Below, piece by piece: positions 4,198 to 14,506 of a stretch of DNA of 21,703 bases; position 1 is the stretch's first letter; the number at the start of each line of letters is the position of its first letter. The DNA lies in the NCBI GenBank assembly GCA_028276365.1, contig JAPYWL010000017.1, positions 1-21,703 on the forward strand, given 5' to 3'. Both the position numbers and the translations under genes were made by a program. The notes beneath the pieces were generated by a model. It was not told the origin of the DNA, made no database searches, and saw nothing but the letters and a program-made list of their open reading frames with translations. This stretch comes from Deltaproteobacteria bacterium. GTDB lineage: Bacteria; DRYD01.

Positions 4198-6300
4198 ATG
4201 GAAATAAAATTCTTCAGCTCAGATAAAAAAATAAATATAAAACCTAATAAATTAGTTTTAGTTGATAAAATTAACGATTTGATTGAATTGTATGAATATG
4301 AGAATTATTATTTAAAAGTTATACAGGATATACTAAATACTAATAAATTTTATAGAGATTTAGTAAATAAAATTGAATTTATATATAAATTGTTAAGTGA
4401 TGCTAAAGAAGAGAATATAAAGAAAAGTTTGGAATTATCGTTAGCTTGTGGATATTTTTTAGATGATGGGAAATTCTTTAAAAAAGAAACTAAAAATATA
4501 GTTTTACTTTATAAAAAACAAAATTTTGTTAATTTAAGGGAATTTTTGGAAAATGAAGAAATCTTTAGTTATAAAAGAATAAGTATTTATCAAAAAATCA
4601 TTGATTTATTAATTTTTTTACATCAAAAAGATATTTTAATTTGTGATTTTAATTTAGATAATTTTAAAATTCTACAAGATTTAAATAATTCTAATGATTT
4701 AATAGTAATAAATTTAGAAAAGATTAGTATTAAGGAATTAAAAGATGCAAAATTTCTTGAATCTAGTTTTATATTACCTCCTGAGACTTTGTTTAAAAGT
4801 GAATATAATATTTATTCTGAAATTTGGCTGTCTACTAATTTAATTTTTTATATTTTAACGGGGTTAGATGCTTTTGCTTTTATAAAATTAAATATTATGA
4901 ATCATAATATATTACAGAAATTTTTATATTATATAGATTATAGAATAAAGACTTGGCCACCTGTTATTAAACAAAATATAAATATTTCTTCTCAATTCCC
5001 TTATTTTGATCAAAGTAAATATGATAATTTAACCGAAATTTGTAAAAATTATTTTAAATCCTCTAATTTTAAGGAGATTTTATTTAGAAACTTTATTTTA
5101 GGATACCTTTTATTTAATCAACGAAAAGATTTAAATTTTATAAAAAACGAATTAAAGAAAGACTTAGTTAATTATAACCTAAATGAGGTTAAAAATTTAG
5201 AGAGTTTTGAAAAAGAAATAAAACAAAGGGAGATTCTTAAAAAAGAAGCAGAGCAAAAAGGGATTTTTCATAAAGAGATACTTCAAGAAGAGAGATCTCA
5301 GGAAGAAAGCCAACAGAAATTGGTATTTCAAGAAATTAAAAATGAGGAAAATAAAGAAATAGCTTATGAAATTAAATCAAATAAAGAAATTAAGGAGGAA
5401 ATTTATAATGTTAATTTAAATTTTCAAAAACAGGATTTTTTACAAAAGCAGGATTCTAAAGTAGAACATGAAAACAATATTAAAGACGATATTTTAGAAG
5501 ATGTTATAGAAAATGTTATAGAAAATGTTATAGATTCAGATATACGGGAATCTAGTAAAGATGTGTTAAAATTAAATTTAGTTAATAGGTTTCAAGTTGA
5601 AAGTAATGTATTTTATAATCAAGAAGTAGGGGATATATATGAATATATTACTACTAAATTAAAGGAAAAAAACATAATAAATACTAAGTTAGTAGAATTT
5701 ATAAAAAATATTTTTATATTTATTCCTTTGGATTTGGATTTACTTAGTTTTTTTAAAGTTAATTTGCTTTATAGTTTATTTAGTGTAATAAATAATAAAG
5801 AAGATGAAATAAAAAAAAGTATTAATTTGGATGATAAAGAATTTTATAATCTCAAAGTAGTTATTGTTAATTTTATTCAGTTTTTATCTGAAGAGAATCT
5901 AAAAAGAGTAGTTAATCTATTTTTAAAACTTTATAAGAGTAATCCTTATGAAAAGTTAATTTATTTTATTTATCAAAATTTACACAAAGATTTATTAAAT
6001 ATTAAGTTAAATACATCAGACAGAACGGTATTTTTAAAGAATATTAATTTAAAGCTTAATAGTTTTCTTTCTGTTAAGATTTCAGAGATTTTAAATGATT
6101 ATTTGGAAAATTATAATAAAAAATTAAAATTATTTTTAATTGGTTTAACTCTTATTTTATCAATTATTAATGCTTTTCTATTTTTAATTAATTTTAAATT
6201 ATTTTTGATTTTTTTTGCTATTAATTTTTTTGTTTTGATATTAATTATTTATTTTGTGCTAAAGTATATAAGGAATGTAATTTTTGAAAGGTTTAGTTAA
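4198..6300 (+). CDS. Protein-kinase-like (pseudokinase) membrane protein
   Basis: 700 residues. The first 320 or so read as a protein kinase fold. YLKVI (K40) resembles the VAIK lysine. LHQKDILICDFNLDNF (D150, N155) matches the catalytic loop HRDxxxxN with the His lost. VINLEK (172-175) stands where DFG or DxDS should be, with the metal-binding Asp absent. PPETLF resembles the APE motif, YSEIWLSTNLIFYILTG the helix-F DxWSxG region, and QRKDL the C-lobe Arg. The layout recalls bacterial YegI/helix-hairpin-helix kinases. Residues about 330-430 are very rich in Glu, Lys and Gln with heptad-like charge, probably coiled coil, followed by a short ENVIENVI repeat. Two strongly hydrophobic helices lie at about 638-690. 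Inferred topology: cytoplasmic kinase-like domain and stalk, C-terminal membrane anchor. There is no Shine-Dalgarno. Loss of the DFG Asp suggests a regulatory rather than catalytic role; kinase homology is my reading, not proven. Confidence 0.6.
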   Translation: MEIKFFSSDKKINIKPNKLVLVDKINDLIELYEYENYYLKVIQDILNTNKFYRDLVNKIEFIYKLLSDAKEENIKKSLELSLACGYFLDDGKFFKKETKNIVLLYKKQNFVNLREFLENEEIFSYKRISIYQKIIDLLIFLHQKDILICDFNLDNFKILQDLNNSNDLIVINLEKISIKELKDAKFLESSFILPPETLFKSEYNIYSEIWLSTNLIFYILTGLDAFAFIKLNIMNHNILQKFLYYIDYRIKTWPPVIKQNINISSQFPYFDQSKYDNLTEICKNYFKSSNFKEILFRNFILGYLLFNQRKDLNFIKNELKKDLVNYNLNEVKNLESFEKEIKQREILKKEAEQKGIFHKEILQEERSQEESQQKLVFQEIKNEENKEIAYEIKSNKEIKEEIYNVNLNFQKQDFLQKQDSKVEHENNIKDDILEDVIENVIENVIDSDIRESSKDVLKLNLVNRFQVESNVFYNQEVGDIYEYITTKLKEKNIINTKLVEFIKNIFIFIPLDLDLLSFFKVNLLYSLFSVINNKEDEIKKSINLDDKEFYNLKVVIVNFIQFLSEENLKRVVNLFLKLYKSNPYEKLIYFIYQNLHKDLLNIKLNTSDRTVFLKNINLKLNSFLSVKISEILNDYLENYNKKLKLFLIGLTLILSIINAFLFLINFKLFLIFFAINFFVLILIIYFVLKYIRNVIFERFS

Positions 6301-6674: not shown

Positions 6675-7409
6675 ATGTTTGGAATAGAAGGAAATGAATG
6701 GCTTCCATTTTTAAGACAACAACAATTGGAGCCATTTTTAAACGTACAAAGAAATTTTATAATAAATAATAATACTACAATAATAAATAATTATTTTTAT
6801 CCTCAACCTCAAATCCCACCACAAATTATACTCCAATTAATAATGATATTAATTCAATTATTACAAGCACAACAAGGAGGATATGGTTTTTATCCACCTA
6901 TTTTGGGGGCTCCAGAGATAGGGGGGCCAGTAAGTCCTTTAATTGGATTCCCAGGAAGAGGACCAATCTTAGGGTTCCCAGGAATTGGTTTGCCAGGAAT
7001 GGGTTATCCTACAATTGGTTATCCAATGCCATTCCCAGGGCCAATAGGTTATCCATCACCTATGCCATTCCCAGGATTTCCTCCAATTGAACCACCTACA
7101 TTTACTGATTATGGTATGGCTATAGGTCAATCAGTAGGTAGTATGGCTGGAGGTATAGCAGGAGGATTTGTTGGTTGGCAAGCAGGTGCTGCTGCTGGAG
7201 CAGCATTAGGTACAGCAATATTACCAGGCATTGGAACACTTATAGGTGGTTTCTTAGGAGGAATAGTAGGTGGTATTGGAGGTAGTTTCTTAGGTAGTTC
7301 AGTAGGTGGGTTTGTTGGAAAAGTAGCAGGTGGATTTATAGGAGCAGTCGCTGACGGAATAGGTGGATTCTTTAAAGGGGCTGGAAAAATATTAAAAAAA
7401 CTATTCTAA
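6675..7409 (+). CDS. Gly/Pro-rich protein with C-terminal glycine-zipper region
   Basis: 244 residues, no family recognised. The N-terminal 50 residues are polar and Asn/Gln-rich. Residues about 48-66 (IPPQIILQLIMILIQLLQAQ) form one hydrophobic helix. Residues about 67-145 are a Pro/Gly/Phe/Tyr low-complexity stretch with loose repeats (GFPG, GYP, PFPG). Residues about 150-235 carry many small-residue GxxxG-like steps (GGIAGGFVGWQAGAAAGAALG) as in glycine-zipper membrane or oligomerising proteins, and the end is basic (KILKKLF). No signal peptide is visible. AGGAGGTG at 6658-6665 lies nine bases before the ATG, and a terminator closes the gene, so it is a single-gene unit. Codon choice (CCA, GGA, GGT) and G+C look richer than in the neighbours, partly because of composition. 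Strong translation is inferred. A structural, surface or pore-like protein is possible; the function is unknown. Confidence 0.85.
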   Translation: MFGIEGNEWLPFLRQQQLEPFLNVQRNFIINNNTTIINNYFYPQPQIPPQIILQLIMILIQLLQAQQGGYGFYPPILGAPEIGGPVSPLIGFPGRGPILGFPGIGLPGMGYPTIGYPMPFPGPIGYPSPMPFPGFPPIEPPTFTDYGMAIGQSVGSMAGGIAGGFVGWQAGAAAGAALGTAILPGIGTLIGGFLGGIVGGIGGSFLGSSVGGFVGKVAGGFIGAVADGIGGFFKGAGKILKKLF

Positions 7410-7437
7410 ACGATTGATTTAAATGGAATTTACAGAC

Positions 7438-7467
7438 GAGGAGGAAGTAAAGTTCCTCCTCTTTTTT
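7438..7467 (+). terminator. Rho-independent terminator after the Gly/Pro-rich gene
   Basis: GAGGAGGAA (7438-7446) pairs perfectly with TTCCTCCTC (7453-7461) around a six-base loop, followed by six T. It begins 29 bases after the stop codon at 7409. It is the clearest terminator in the window. Confidence 0.93.
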
Positions 7468-8066
7468 ATTTTATTTTATTTATTTTATTATATTCCAATG
7501 TAATAAAATTGTAATTCCTGCTTTGTATCTTTTTTAATCACTAATTTAATTTTCTAAACTTTTAAGAAAGTAAATTTTTTGAAACTTTTATATTTAAGCT
7601 TATTTTTAACTTTTAGGAGTACCTTGAATTAACTTAAGAAGTAAAGATATATATTGAGTATTTTGAGTATTTTTAACTCATCTTTTTTTTTATAGTACTA
7701 TTTATTTTTTTGATATTATTGCTTTTAGGGAGTATATGGTATTAATTGAGTAGATGCTAATAATTGGGCTTAATGTCTAAGTAATTGATTTAGTAATTGA
7801 GTGTAGGAATTTAAAGACTTAATGGCTTAGAGATCTATGTAAATGTAAAATGATTATTTTTTTTAATAGAATTATCTTAAAGTAAATGTTAATGTAATTG
7901 ACTATATTTTATTTCAAACATTATAAAGAGTTAAAATTTTATTTAATGAAAATGCATTAACACGTAAAGAAAAAATTAGTAAGACTGTTTTATATGTTTT
8001 TTTGTTTTTTTATTGGTTTTTTAGTATTTTTTTATTGGTAAGGTTTTTATAATATTGTTTTAGTTT
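7468..8066. other. Non-coding, AT-rich stretch
   Basis: About 600 bases with stop codons in all frames and no convincing start with a ribosome binding site, tRNA or stable G+C-rich hairpin. It holds long T and A runs and a repeated TTTTTTATTGGT near 7998-8040. I see no gene here. It separates the terminated Gly/Pro-rich gene from the convergent Cys/His-rich mini-gene. Confidence 0.6.
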
Positions 8067-8114
8067 TTTTTGCAGTGATATTTTTAAAAGTTTTTGTAGT
8101 GATATTTTTAAAAG
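8067..8114. repeat. Tandem 24-bp repeat at the 3' end of the Cys/His-rich gene
   Basis: Two adjacent 24-bp copies (8067-8090 and 8091-8114), each ending GTGATATTTTTAAAAG, differ at one base (C or T before AGTGATATT). The right copy contains the TAA stop (8108-8110) of the leftward mini-gene, so the other copy lies just beyond its 3' end. Confidence 0.85.
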
Positions 8115-8320
8115 AAGGTGTGGCCATGTTTACAGTAATGAGCTCCTCCATGATCTTCTTCTAAAATACAAGGAGCAAAGCATTCTCAAGGATTATCTGA
8201 AGAGCCACATGGAGGAATTGTGCATTTATGACCTTTACATTGCTTACCACAGCTTTTTCTTTTTTCGTTTTCATTAATTTCATTAATATTAATTTCTTTA
8301 TATTCCTTATTTTCTTGCAT
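8108..8320 (-). CDS. Small Cys/His-rich (probable zinc-binding) protein interrupted by an in-frame TGA
   Basis: Leftward from ATG at 8320, preceded by AGAGGTTAATCAT (the same leader form as the protease gene), the frame gives 44 residues, a TGA at 8188-8186, 25 more residues, then TAA. Before the TGA: Asn/Glu/Lys-rich start, then CGKQCKGHKCTIPPCGSSDN. After it: ECFAPCILEEDHGGAHYCKH and GHTFF. The Cys/His pattern (C24, C28, H31, C33, C38, C47, C51, H57, H61, C63, H65, H67) runs straight through the TGA, as expected for one metal-binding domain of 70 residues. Either the TGA is a recent nonsense change (TGG Trp would fit), is read through, or encodes selenocysteine. It lies about 85 bases downstream of the delta-60 gene on the same strand. 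No family is recognised with certainty. Confidence 0.6.
8142..8176 (-). other. Possible RNA hairpin just downstream of the in-frame TGA
   Basis: On the minus strand GCTCCTT (8176-8170) can pair with GAGGAGC (8148-8142), seven pairs including one G-T, around a 21-base loop. It begins nine bases after the TGA, roughly where bacterial selenocysteine insertion hairpins lie. The loop is larger than that of the classical E. coli element, and the G-rich apical loop was not found. The pairing could also be chance from coding sequence. Confidence 0.3.
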
Positions 8321-8360
8321 ATGATTAACCTCTTTTTATATGAAATTATATTTAGGTTAA

Positions 8361-8408
8361 ATTTTTTAGGTTTTAAATTTTTTAGGTTTTAGTTTTTTTA
8401 GGTTTTAT
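8361..8408. repeat. Three tandem 16-bp units at the 3' end of the delta-60 gene
   Basis: ATTTTTTAGGTTTTAA (8361-8376), ATTTTTTAGGTTTTAG (8377-8392) and TTTTTTTAGGTTTTAT (8393-8408) are adjacent and nearly identical. A weaker partial unit precedes them (about 8350-8360). The last unit overlaps the stop codon (8405-8407) of the leftward delta-60 repeat gene. Confidence 0.85.
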
Positions 8409-9805
8409 GGGTTAATTTTGAGAATGAACATATTATTATATTTTCCGTAAAAGCTTTCACCTGTGAGATATATTTTTTGATCTTTATCAATAGCTAAAGA
8501 GTAAGCTCTATCTTTTTCATCTCCCCCTGCTATATCATTATATACAAATACCCCTTTATTGGCAAAACTTTTATCTAAGCTTCCATTTTCGTTATATCTT
8601 AGTAATATTACATCATCATCTCTGTTATTATTTACATATCCAGCTACTAATATTCTATTTTGGTTGTCAATAGCAATGGAATAAGCTTTATCATCTTTGT
8701 TTTTATAATCGTATATTACATAGCCTTTGTTATTAAATGATTTATCAAGAGTTCCATTGGGATTATACCTCCAGATAATTATGTCATAGTCATCTCGTTT
8801 GCTTCTGGTATATCCTGCTACTAAGATTCTGTCTTGATTATCTACAATTATTGAATTACCATAATCTCCCATATTTACTGAATCATTATTAAAAGTAGCT
8901 ATTCCGTTATAACCAAATGTTTTATCTAGTGTTCCATCTGATTTCAAGCAGCATATAACCATATCGTTAGCGTTAATTCCTCTGGAATAACCGGTAATGT
9001 ATATTCTATTATTTTTATTATCTACAGCTACGGAATTAGCGATATCATCCATATCCATTTGTTCAAAGGCATTTAAAGTTATATAACCTTTATTATTAAA
9101 GGTTTTATCCAAGGATCCGTCGGGATTAATTCTAAGGATGATAATATCTTTATTTTTATTTTTTATGAAAGCGTTTCCAACAGCAATAATTTTTTCATTA
9201 CTATCTAATTTTATAGAGTTAATTTCGGGAATTCTTTGGATTTGATTGTCTTGGATATTAAGTAATAGGAATCCATTGTTAGCGAATGATTTATCATATG
9301 AACCGTCTGGATTAAATTTAAATATACTTCCATAAGCAGATCCACCTAATTCAAAATTTTCAGAAACTGCTACACTCCCTCCTACTAATATTTTATTGTC
9401 TTTAGTTAAGCAAACTGTTTTAATATATGGTAGTCCTATATTTTGAGATATTTTATCAATTATTATATATCCTTTAGAATTACCAAAATATTGGATGGGA
9501 TTTCCATTTAAATAAAATTTCCAGATTACGGCAAAGTGTTTAGTTGTTTGTGGTTTTCCAGCTGCTCCAATAACTATTATATTGTTTTCATTATCTATTG
9601 CTATATCTTCACCTGTAGAATATCCATCTTCTATAATATAAGATGTTAAATATCCTGTTTTATTAAAGCTACTATCTAAAGTTTCTAAGAGATTTTTAGC
9701 GTTTAATTTTTGGAAATTAATAATAAGCATTGCTAATAAGATACTAATAATTGAGTATATAAGGATCTTTAGCAACATATCTTTGGCTTTAAATTTATCT
9801 TTCAT
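8405..9805 (-). CDS. Delta-60 repeat (beta-propeller-like) exported protein
   Basis: 466 residues. After a basic start (MKDKFKAKD) residues about 10-33 form a hydrophobic signal or anchor. The rest is about seven repeats of some 55-65 residues. Each has an NPDGSLDKTFNNKGYI-like motif (variants NPDGSYDKSFANNG, KSDGTLDKTFGYNG, NPNGTLDKSFNNKG, NENGSLDKSFANKG) followed by DN.N.I.VAG strands. This is the signature of delta-60 repeat proteins, thought to form a propeller outside the cytoplasmic membrane. No enzymatic motif is present. Its ligand or role is unknown; such proteins are usually annotated as hypothetical surface proteins. A Shine-Dalgarno (GGGAAGAG) lies 10 bases upstream. It is the likely first gene of a leftward pair with the Cys/His-rich mini-gene. 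Confidence 0.88.
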   Translation of the reverse strand: MKDKFKAKDMLLKILIYSIISILLAMLIINFQKLNAKNLLETLDSSFNKTGYLTSYIIEDGYSTGEDIAIDNENNIIVIGAAGKPQTTKHFAVIWKFYLNGNPIQYFGNSKGYIIIDKISQNIGLPYIKTVCLTKDNKILVGGSVAVSENFELGGSAYGSIFKFNPDGSYDKSFANNGFLLLNIQDNQIQRIPEINSIKLDSNEKIIAVGNAFIKNKNKDIIILRINPDGSLDKTFNNKGYITLNAFEQMDMDDIANSVAVDNKNNRIYITGYSRGINANDMVICCLKSDGTLDKTFGYNGIATFNNDSVNMGDYGNSIIVDNQDRILVAGYTRSKRDDYDIIIWRYNPNGTLDKSFNNKGYVIYDYKNKDDKAYSIAIDNQNRILVAGYVNNNRDDDVILLRYNENGSLDKSFANKGVFVYNDIAGGDEKDRAYSLAIDKDQKIYLTGESFYGKYNNMFILKINP

Positions 9806-10289
9806 ATTGTTATTCTCTTCCCTTTATTGGTATTTACCCTCTTTTAGGGGGGCATTATTATATTATACTTTTTTTTTTAAAATTCCTACTTTCTAAAAAT
9901 AATAAAAAAATATTAAGGATTTAAAGGGAAAAGGAGAATAGTCTAAAGTTAAGCCTTTAAATAATACTCAAATAATGATCTGCTAGATGATAGCAACAGA
10001 CAAATATTACATAGTATTAAAAAAATTGAAAAGTAAAAAGAATAATATTTTTTGTATTATTTGTAGTTAGTATTATTTTAGACAGTATTTTGAAAATTAT
10101 TTTTATTAATAGATTAAATTAATTTAGTGTATGCGGTTAAAGACTAAAAATAAAGAGATTAATTTTTAGTATTATGAACGGTATATTTGGAATATAATAA
10201 ATTTATATTTTTATAAAATGATAATGTGTTTTATTTTTATAAATTTTATTTTAAGAGGAAAGAGTTTTTAGGGATTTAATTTTAAATTA
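9806..10289. other. Non-coding divergent region between the delta-60 gene and mlaE
   Basis: 484 bases without a supportable gene on either strand. It should hold promoters for the leftward delta-60 gene and rightward mlaE. It contains the first copy of the repeated hairpin element (9941-10001). A G-rich patch at 9843-9849 next to CCCTC could form a weak hairpin. The rest is AT-rich with long T and A runs. Confidence 0.6.
9941..10001 (+). ncRNA. Candidate structured RNA element, copy 1
   Basis: TCTAAAGTTAAGCCTTTAAA (9942-9961) recurs at 16491-16510 with one change. In RNA it forms UAAAG (9944-9948)/CUUUA (9955-9959) with loop UUAAGC. A second hairpin TGCTA/TAGCA (9981-9995) follows, and GTCT (9941-9944) can close the whole with AGAC (9998-10001), sharing one base with the first hairpin. 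It lies about 290 bases before mlaE on that strand. It could be a riboswitch-like leader, a small RNA or a protein-binding site; the strand is assumed. It does not match the core of riboswitch classes I can recall. Confidence 0.35.
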
Positions 10290-14122: not shown

Positions 14123-14506
14123 ATGTATTTTTCATTGAATTATAAAAATTTTCTTATTGATACTAATATTTTTTTAGAAATACTTTTAGATAGAAAAGGA
14201 GCTATTGAATGTCAAAAAATTTTAAAGTTAAAATACAGATATTTTATTTCTGACTTTTCGTTGTATTTTATAATAGAGATAATTAGATTAAATTTAAATG
14301 ATTTTTATGATGTTGTTAATAATGCTGAAAGATTTGGTTTAGATTTTGACGATGCTTATCAATATACTATTTCTGTTAAAAATAATTTGTTAATTATTAG
14401 TTATGATAAGCATTTTGATAAAACAGATCTGAAAAGTGATAAAACAGATCTTAAAAGAATGAAACTTAAGCAGTTATTAAAATTGACTGATATTAAATTT
14501 AACTGA
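14123..14506 (+). CDS. PIN-domain toxin, VapC-like
   Basis: 127 residues. LIDTNIFLEILLDRK near the start carries the first PIN Asp, and FISDFSLYFIIEIIR supplies a second-helix Glu. GLDFDDAYQY gives the third acidic site, and LLIISYDKHFDK the fourth (D in SYDKHFD). Together these form the Mg-dependent ribonuclease site of VapC toxins, which typically cut tRNA or rRNA. Start chosen at 14123 because the family begins just before the DTN motif; no Shine-Dalgarno is visible. It ends in TGA, the only TGA stop among the genes here. The C-terminus contains an internal tandem DKTDLKS/DKTDLKR duplication. The pair with the upstream antitoxin sits between 51-bp direct repeats, suggesting acquisition as a unit. 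Confidence 0.85.
   Translation: MYFSLNYKNFLIDTNIFLEILLDRKGAIECQKILKLKYRYFISDFSLYFIIEIIRLNLNDFYDVVNNAERFGLDFDDAYQYTISVKNNLLIISYDKHFDKTDLKSDKTDLKRMKLKQLLKLTDIKFN
14417..14458. repeat. In-frame 21-bp tandem duplication within the toxin gene
   Basis: Two adjacent 21-bp copies (14417-14437, 14438-14458), starting GATAAAACAGATCT, differ at two bases and encode DKTDLKS then DKTDLKR. The frame is preserved, adding seven residues just after the SYDKHFD active-site motif. Confidence 0.9.

Follow-up and report, generated by a model that had tools for sequence, protein, structure and literature searches.

Zinc knuckles and bacterial metallothioneins are small, metal-binding proteins rich in Cys and His. 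The product of the mini-gene described here is short as well and, like them, has Cys and His residues set close together behind a charged lead, whereas its spacing, C-x3-C...H-x-C, was assigned to no named family here (no match in Pfam, PHROGs or PADLOC, none over cut-off in NCBIfam). Judging from these residues, the product would bind a metal, probably zinc. The mini-gene also contains an in-frame TGA, a feature that it shares with bacterial selenoproteins that depend on a SECIS element, in which the TGA likewise lies in a small Cys-rich protein, flanked by coding sequence. A third point of comparison is formed by systems in which UGA is read through or reassigned as Trp: there, as here, TGG and TGA are one base apart and a tRNA-Trp(CCA) can misread UGA at a low level. 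In E. coli, background read-through of UGA by the endogenous tRNA-Trp(CCA) has been documented, and a 4-bp anticodon stem increases UGA reading (PMC13092985).

In this study, a window of 21,703 nt (the whole stretch of DNA that was analysed) from an uncultured, AT-rich bacterium was assessed together with further parts of its draft genome and related genomes. The preferred reading, to which a probability of roughly 60% is assigned, is that the mini-gene is a two-module Cys/His gene of about 70 residues that a recent nonsense change, or else a base error in the draft, has interrupted at codon 45.

Layout and neighbourhood of the mini-gene

The features of the locus are as follows.

8329-8335, minus strand: ribosome-binding site of the mini-gene, AAAGAGG, with an 8-nt spacer to the ATG
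8186-8320, minus strand: open reading frame of 44 codons through the TGA, with module 1 (C24-x3-C28-x2-H31-x-C33, plus C38)
8186-8188, minus strand: in-frame TGA, codon 45 of the mini-gene
8108-8185, minus strand: tail of 25 codons plus TAA, with module 2 (C47-x3-C51-x5-H57-x3-H61-x-C63-x-H65-x-H67)
8144-8216, minus strand: imperfect inverted repeat of 18 nt whose arms would flank the TGA in the mRNA; stability not above that of shuffles (z -0.53)
8405-9805, minus strand: DUF5122/SBBP beta-propeller gene, 466 aa, 84 nt upstream of the mini-gene on the same strand
7411-10228: segment holding the mini-gene and the propeller gene; about 50 bp at this place in a collinear genome of the same genus

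The frame starts with the ATG at 8320-8318 and is closed by the TAA at 8110-8108, both on the minus strand. The ribosome-binding site, the start, the TGA at codon 45, the 25 following codons and the TAA that an earlier note on this DNA had described were all found again, and a recount of the ligands agrees with its tally of five Cys/His residues before the TGA (C24, C28, H31, C33, C38) and seven after it (C47, C51, H57, H61, C63, H65, H67). The same note had reasoned that an ordinary stop would leave half of the domain untranslated. Seven ligands do lie past the TGA, but the claim was overstated, as the first 44 residues hold a complete module, C-x3-C-x2-H-x-C. Because module 1 has its full set of four ligands, the damage that an ordinary stop would do to the domain is a weaker argument than the note had made it. 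Short tandem repeats flank the mini-gene at 8361-8396 and 8058-8113 (16-nt and 24-nt spacing), the latter overlapping its TAA.

The mini-gene and the beta-propeller gene are the only genes of a 2.8-kb segment on both sides of which the same-genus genome (G001) is collinear. At the ends of the segment, no IS or long terminal repeats were seen. Of the seven genomes of the order that were compared, five have relatives of the propeller and none has a relative of the mini-gene. Loss of mini-gene function, in a segment that G001 lacks at this place, would be easily tolerated. Next to the segment lies a gene for a Gly/Pro-rich protein of 244 aa (6675-7409, plus strand), which has no Pfam match and of which the DNA is conserved in the same-genus genome; it is followed by a strong terminator-like hairpin (7438-7461, plus strand; nine pairs and then a T run). 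A 700-aa protein encoded at 4198-6300 on the plus strand has no Pfam match either.

Homologues of the mini-gene were found neither in Pfam, PHROGs or PADLOC nor in plasmids, phages, viral contigs or genome contigs, and the sole NCBIfam match, TIGR04453, lies far under its cut-off (12.9 vs 34 bits). The 386 genomes sampled across the domain yielded no relatives; weak matches in them (E 0.001-0.01 per genome, and one of 0.023 in G006) were read as chance. Scans with looser patterns of the type HGGxHxCxxGH returned 75 stretches, all of them out-of-context chance matches on reading, and PDB matches to lipases (E 0.1 or worse) were likewise taken as chance. The AlphaFold2 prediction, made without relatives, has a mean pLDDT of 46 and is too poor to interpret or to search with.

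Decoding of TGA in the genome

The genetic code of the bacterium is standard, and TGA serves as a normal, though seldom used, stop. The stop is TAA in 248 of 330 sampled genes, TAG in 66 and TGA in 16; behind the last 16, the open tail has a median of 9 codons and reaches 25 codons in none. RF2 is present in the genome, over its cut-off. The statement of the earlier note that the rest of the window uses TGG for Trp holds, since TGG occurs 24 times in the major genes of the window and TGA never inside their frames. The sole major gene of the window that ends in TGA encodes a PIN-domain protein (14123-14506, plus strand). The only tRNA-Trp is of the ordinary CCA type; its anticodon stem has 5 bp, with G27-U43 at the top, and its D stem has C11-G24 (stems assigned by eye). 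None of the 37 tRNAs found in the draft has the UCA anticodon that would read UGA. A genome-wide UGA-to-Trp code was therefore rejected, given RF2, the use of TGA as a stop, and a tRNA-Trp(CCA) with a 5-bp stem. Unlike systems in which UGA is read as Trp, this genome thus combines a standard code in the sample with RF2, a 5-bp anticodon stem and the lack of a UCA tRNA.

The earlier note had also listed selenocysteine as a reading of codon 45, which would make the mini-gene product a new small selenoprotein. The position of the TGA in a Cys-rich protein speaks for this, and the 50 nt after the TGA can adopt a fold that meets the loose bacterial SECIS geometry (constraints as given in PMC13188914). 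However, 14% of all TGA sites sampled fit the same geometry, the fold does not surpass those of shuffles (z 0.06), and the G of the loop has A behind it instead of G or U. SelA is missing from the genome itself and from every one of the seven genomes of the order, whose completeness is 71-90%, and the search for it works, because 25 of the 59 genomes of a wider sample score over the cut-off. SelB was over cut-off in none of the seven, the best matches being GTPases, among them a 398-aa protein of the size of EF-Tu. That all seven drafts miss the gene by accident has a probability of about 4e-6 if they are independent, a figure that leaves uncovered a gene acquired by this species alone. The draft of the organism itself (G000; 1.59 Mb in 124 contigs, 87% complete) gives a best tRNA-Sec score of 45.8 bits, under the gathering score of 47, at a place that is a tRNA-Ser(CGA). 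Among the 37 tRNA genes found in this draft, none was seen for Cys, Phe or Ile(GAU); because this is a sign of missing sequence, the draft alone is weak evidence on selenocysteine. No homologue was found in the collections searched, and so none with Cys at codon 45 as in selenoprotein families. Unlike bacterial selenoproteins, the mini-gene thus stands in an order in which neither SelA nor SelB was found (7/7 genomes), in a draft with no tRNA-Sec over cut-off, and with no significant stem-loop after the TGA. Selenocysteine at codon 45 is contradicted by these results and close to excluded, and a new small selenoprotein is very improbable.

Other ways of decoding the site were considered as well. 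The RNA around the TGA has no structure beyond chance (z -0.53; z 0.32), and the Rfam search gave no match. A frameshift at CCU-UGA was rejected by eye, as the short ends that would result, hydrophobic in the +1 frame and basic in the -1 frame, are not Cys/His-rich. An independent start for the tail was ruled out, since it contains none of the codons ATG, GTG and TTG in frame.

Composition and coding character of the tail

Tail statistics were derived from 414 kb of the same genome, namely, the window and 20 further stretches (about 390 kb). Of the 923 stop-free stretches of 20-40 codons that follow any TGA in these 414 kb, only one besides the tail reaches the Cys/His density of the tail (7/25), and the binomial expectation for random DNA of the same composition, given an open tail, is 1.6e-4. 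Both halves of the mini-gene have the ligand order C-x3-C...H-x-C in common (CGKQCKGHKC and CFAPCILEEDHGGAHYC), an order that is present in 1% of shuffled tails. The Cys/His content of the tail is unlikely to be chance. The tail is also undecayed, as is shown by its 25 open codons (chance of such an open tail, p about 0.09) and by a GC content of 40% vs 17-20% in the non-coding flanks. Cys/His density, shared ligand order and GC content all indicate that the tail is coding sequence. Codon usage is uninformative: the log-odds of the tail in frame 0 amount to -1.7 bits, one antisense frame scores higher, and a low score is expected because the composition is so unusual. The 414 kb contain no second open reading frame with a TGA between Cys/His-rich sequence on both sides, and the small open reading frames of the sampled stretches and the related loci include no other Cys/His-rich protein like the mini-gene product.

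Lacking a start codon, the tail must once have been translated in continuation of the frame before it; only reading across the TGA could translate it now, unless it is a recent remnant of such translation. These data bear on the simplest alternative, in which an ordinary protein of 44 residues ends at the TGA and the tail owes its Cys/His residues to chance or is an old remnant. TGA does work as a stop in this genome, and a complete four-ligand module fits within the 44 residues. Such a protein is nevertheless unlikely in view of a tail density that is matched once among 923 comparable stretches, a motif that recurs in 1% of shuffles, and a GC content about twice that of the flanks; in an old remnant, moreover, stops would be expected to accumulate at the same base composition, as the open-tail probability of about 0.09 indicates.

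Probable interruption and possible read-through at codon 45

An interrupted gene is favoured because the composition and the motif of the tail are not due to chance, no decay is seen in it and TGA acts as a genuine stop, and also because no UGA-reading tRNA is among the 37 found and neither selenocysteine machinery nor above-chance structure at the TGA was detected. The ancestral gene would have encoded roughly 70 residues with two Cys/His modules that probably bound zinc. A single-base change would then have turned codon 45 into TGA, either as a very recent nonsense mutation in the lineage or as a base error of the metagenome assembly. Should the mutation be real, translation would now end mostly at the TGA, giving a product of 44 residues in which one C3H module is complete, and the full-length protein would be present at most as a trace, made by Trp mis-reading. 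We infer both the recency and the kind of the base change; a change from TGG (Trp) to TGA is a possibility, one among several single-base neighbours of codon 45. No uninterrupted relative of the mini-gene was seen in the collections searched. Of the three readings that the earlier note had left side by side, the recent nonsense mutation would, like a base error, fit all findings.

Stop read-through, the last of the three, is possible at a low level with Trp at the TGA. In its stronger form, the stop would be functionally leaky, the near-cognate tRNA-Trp(CCA) reading UGA at a rate of at least a few percent so that one- and two-module forms are both used. This is improbable, if less so than a plain 44-residue protein, and it has to be considered because functional read-through, too, predicts an intact tail: the sequence behind the TGA is free of decay and has kept a module-like ligand order, the site has UGA instead of the dominant UAA (248 of the 330 genes), and background read-through by the endogenous tRNA-Trp(CCA) is known in E. 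coli (PMC13092985). Against it, the tRNA-Trp, with its CCA anticodon, 5-bp stem with a G-U top pair and C11-G24 (stems assigned by eye), is without the features that are read here as favouring UGA reading, and no stimulating RNA structure beyond chance was found. Nor is read-through required, because the 44-residue product keeps one complete module.

The present analysis removes the selenocysteine reading. In case the TGA is not read through, as the preferred reading of an interruption implies for all but a trace of the product, the locus would be an interrupted orphan small gene. In case it is read through, the locus would represent functional, cellular, non-selenocysteine stop read-through in a bacterium with a standard code; it is conceivable, though doubtful, that in this organism, with its standard code and without selenocysteine machinery, a leaky UGA sets the ratio of one-module to two-module protein.
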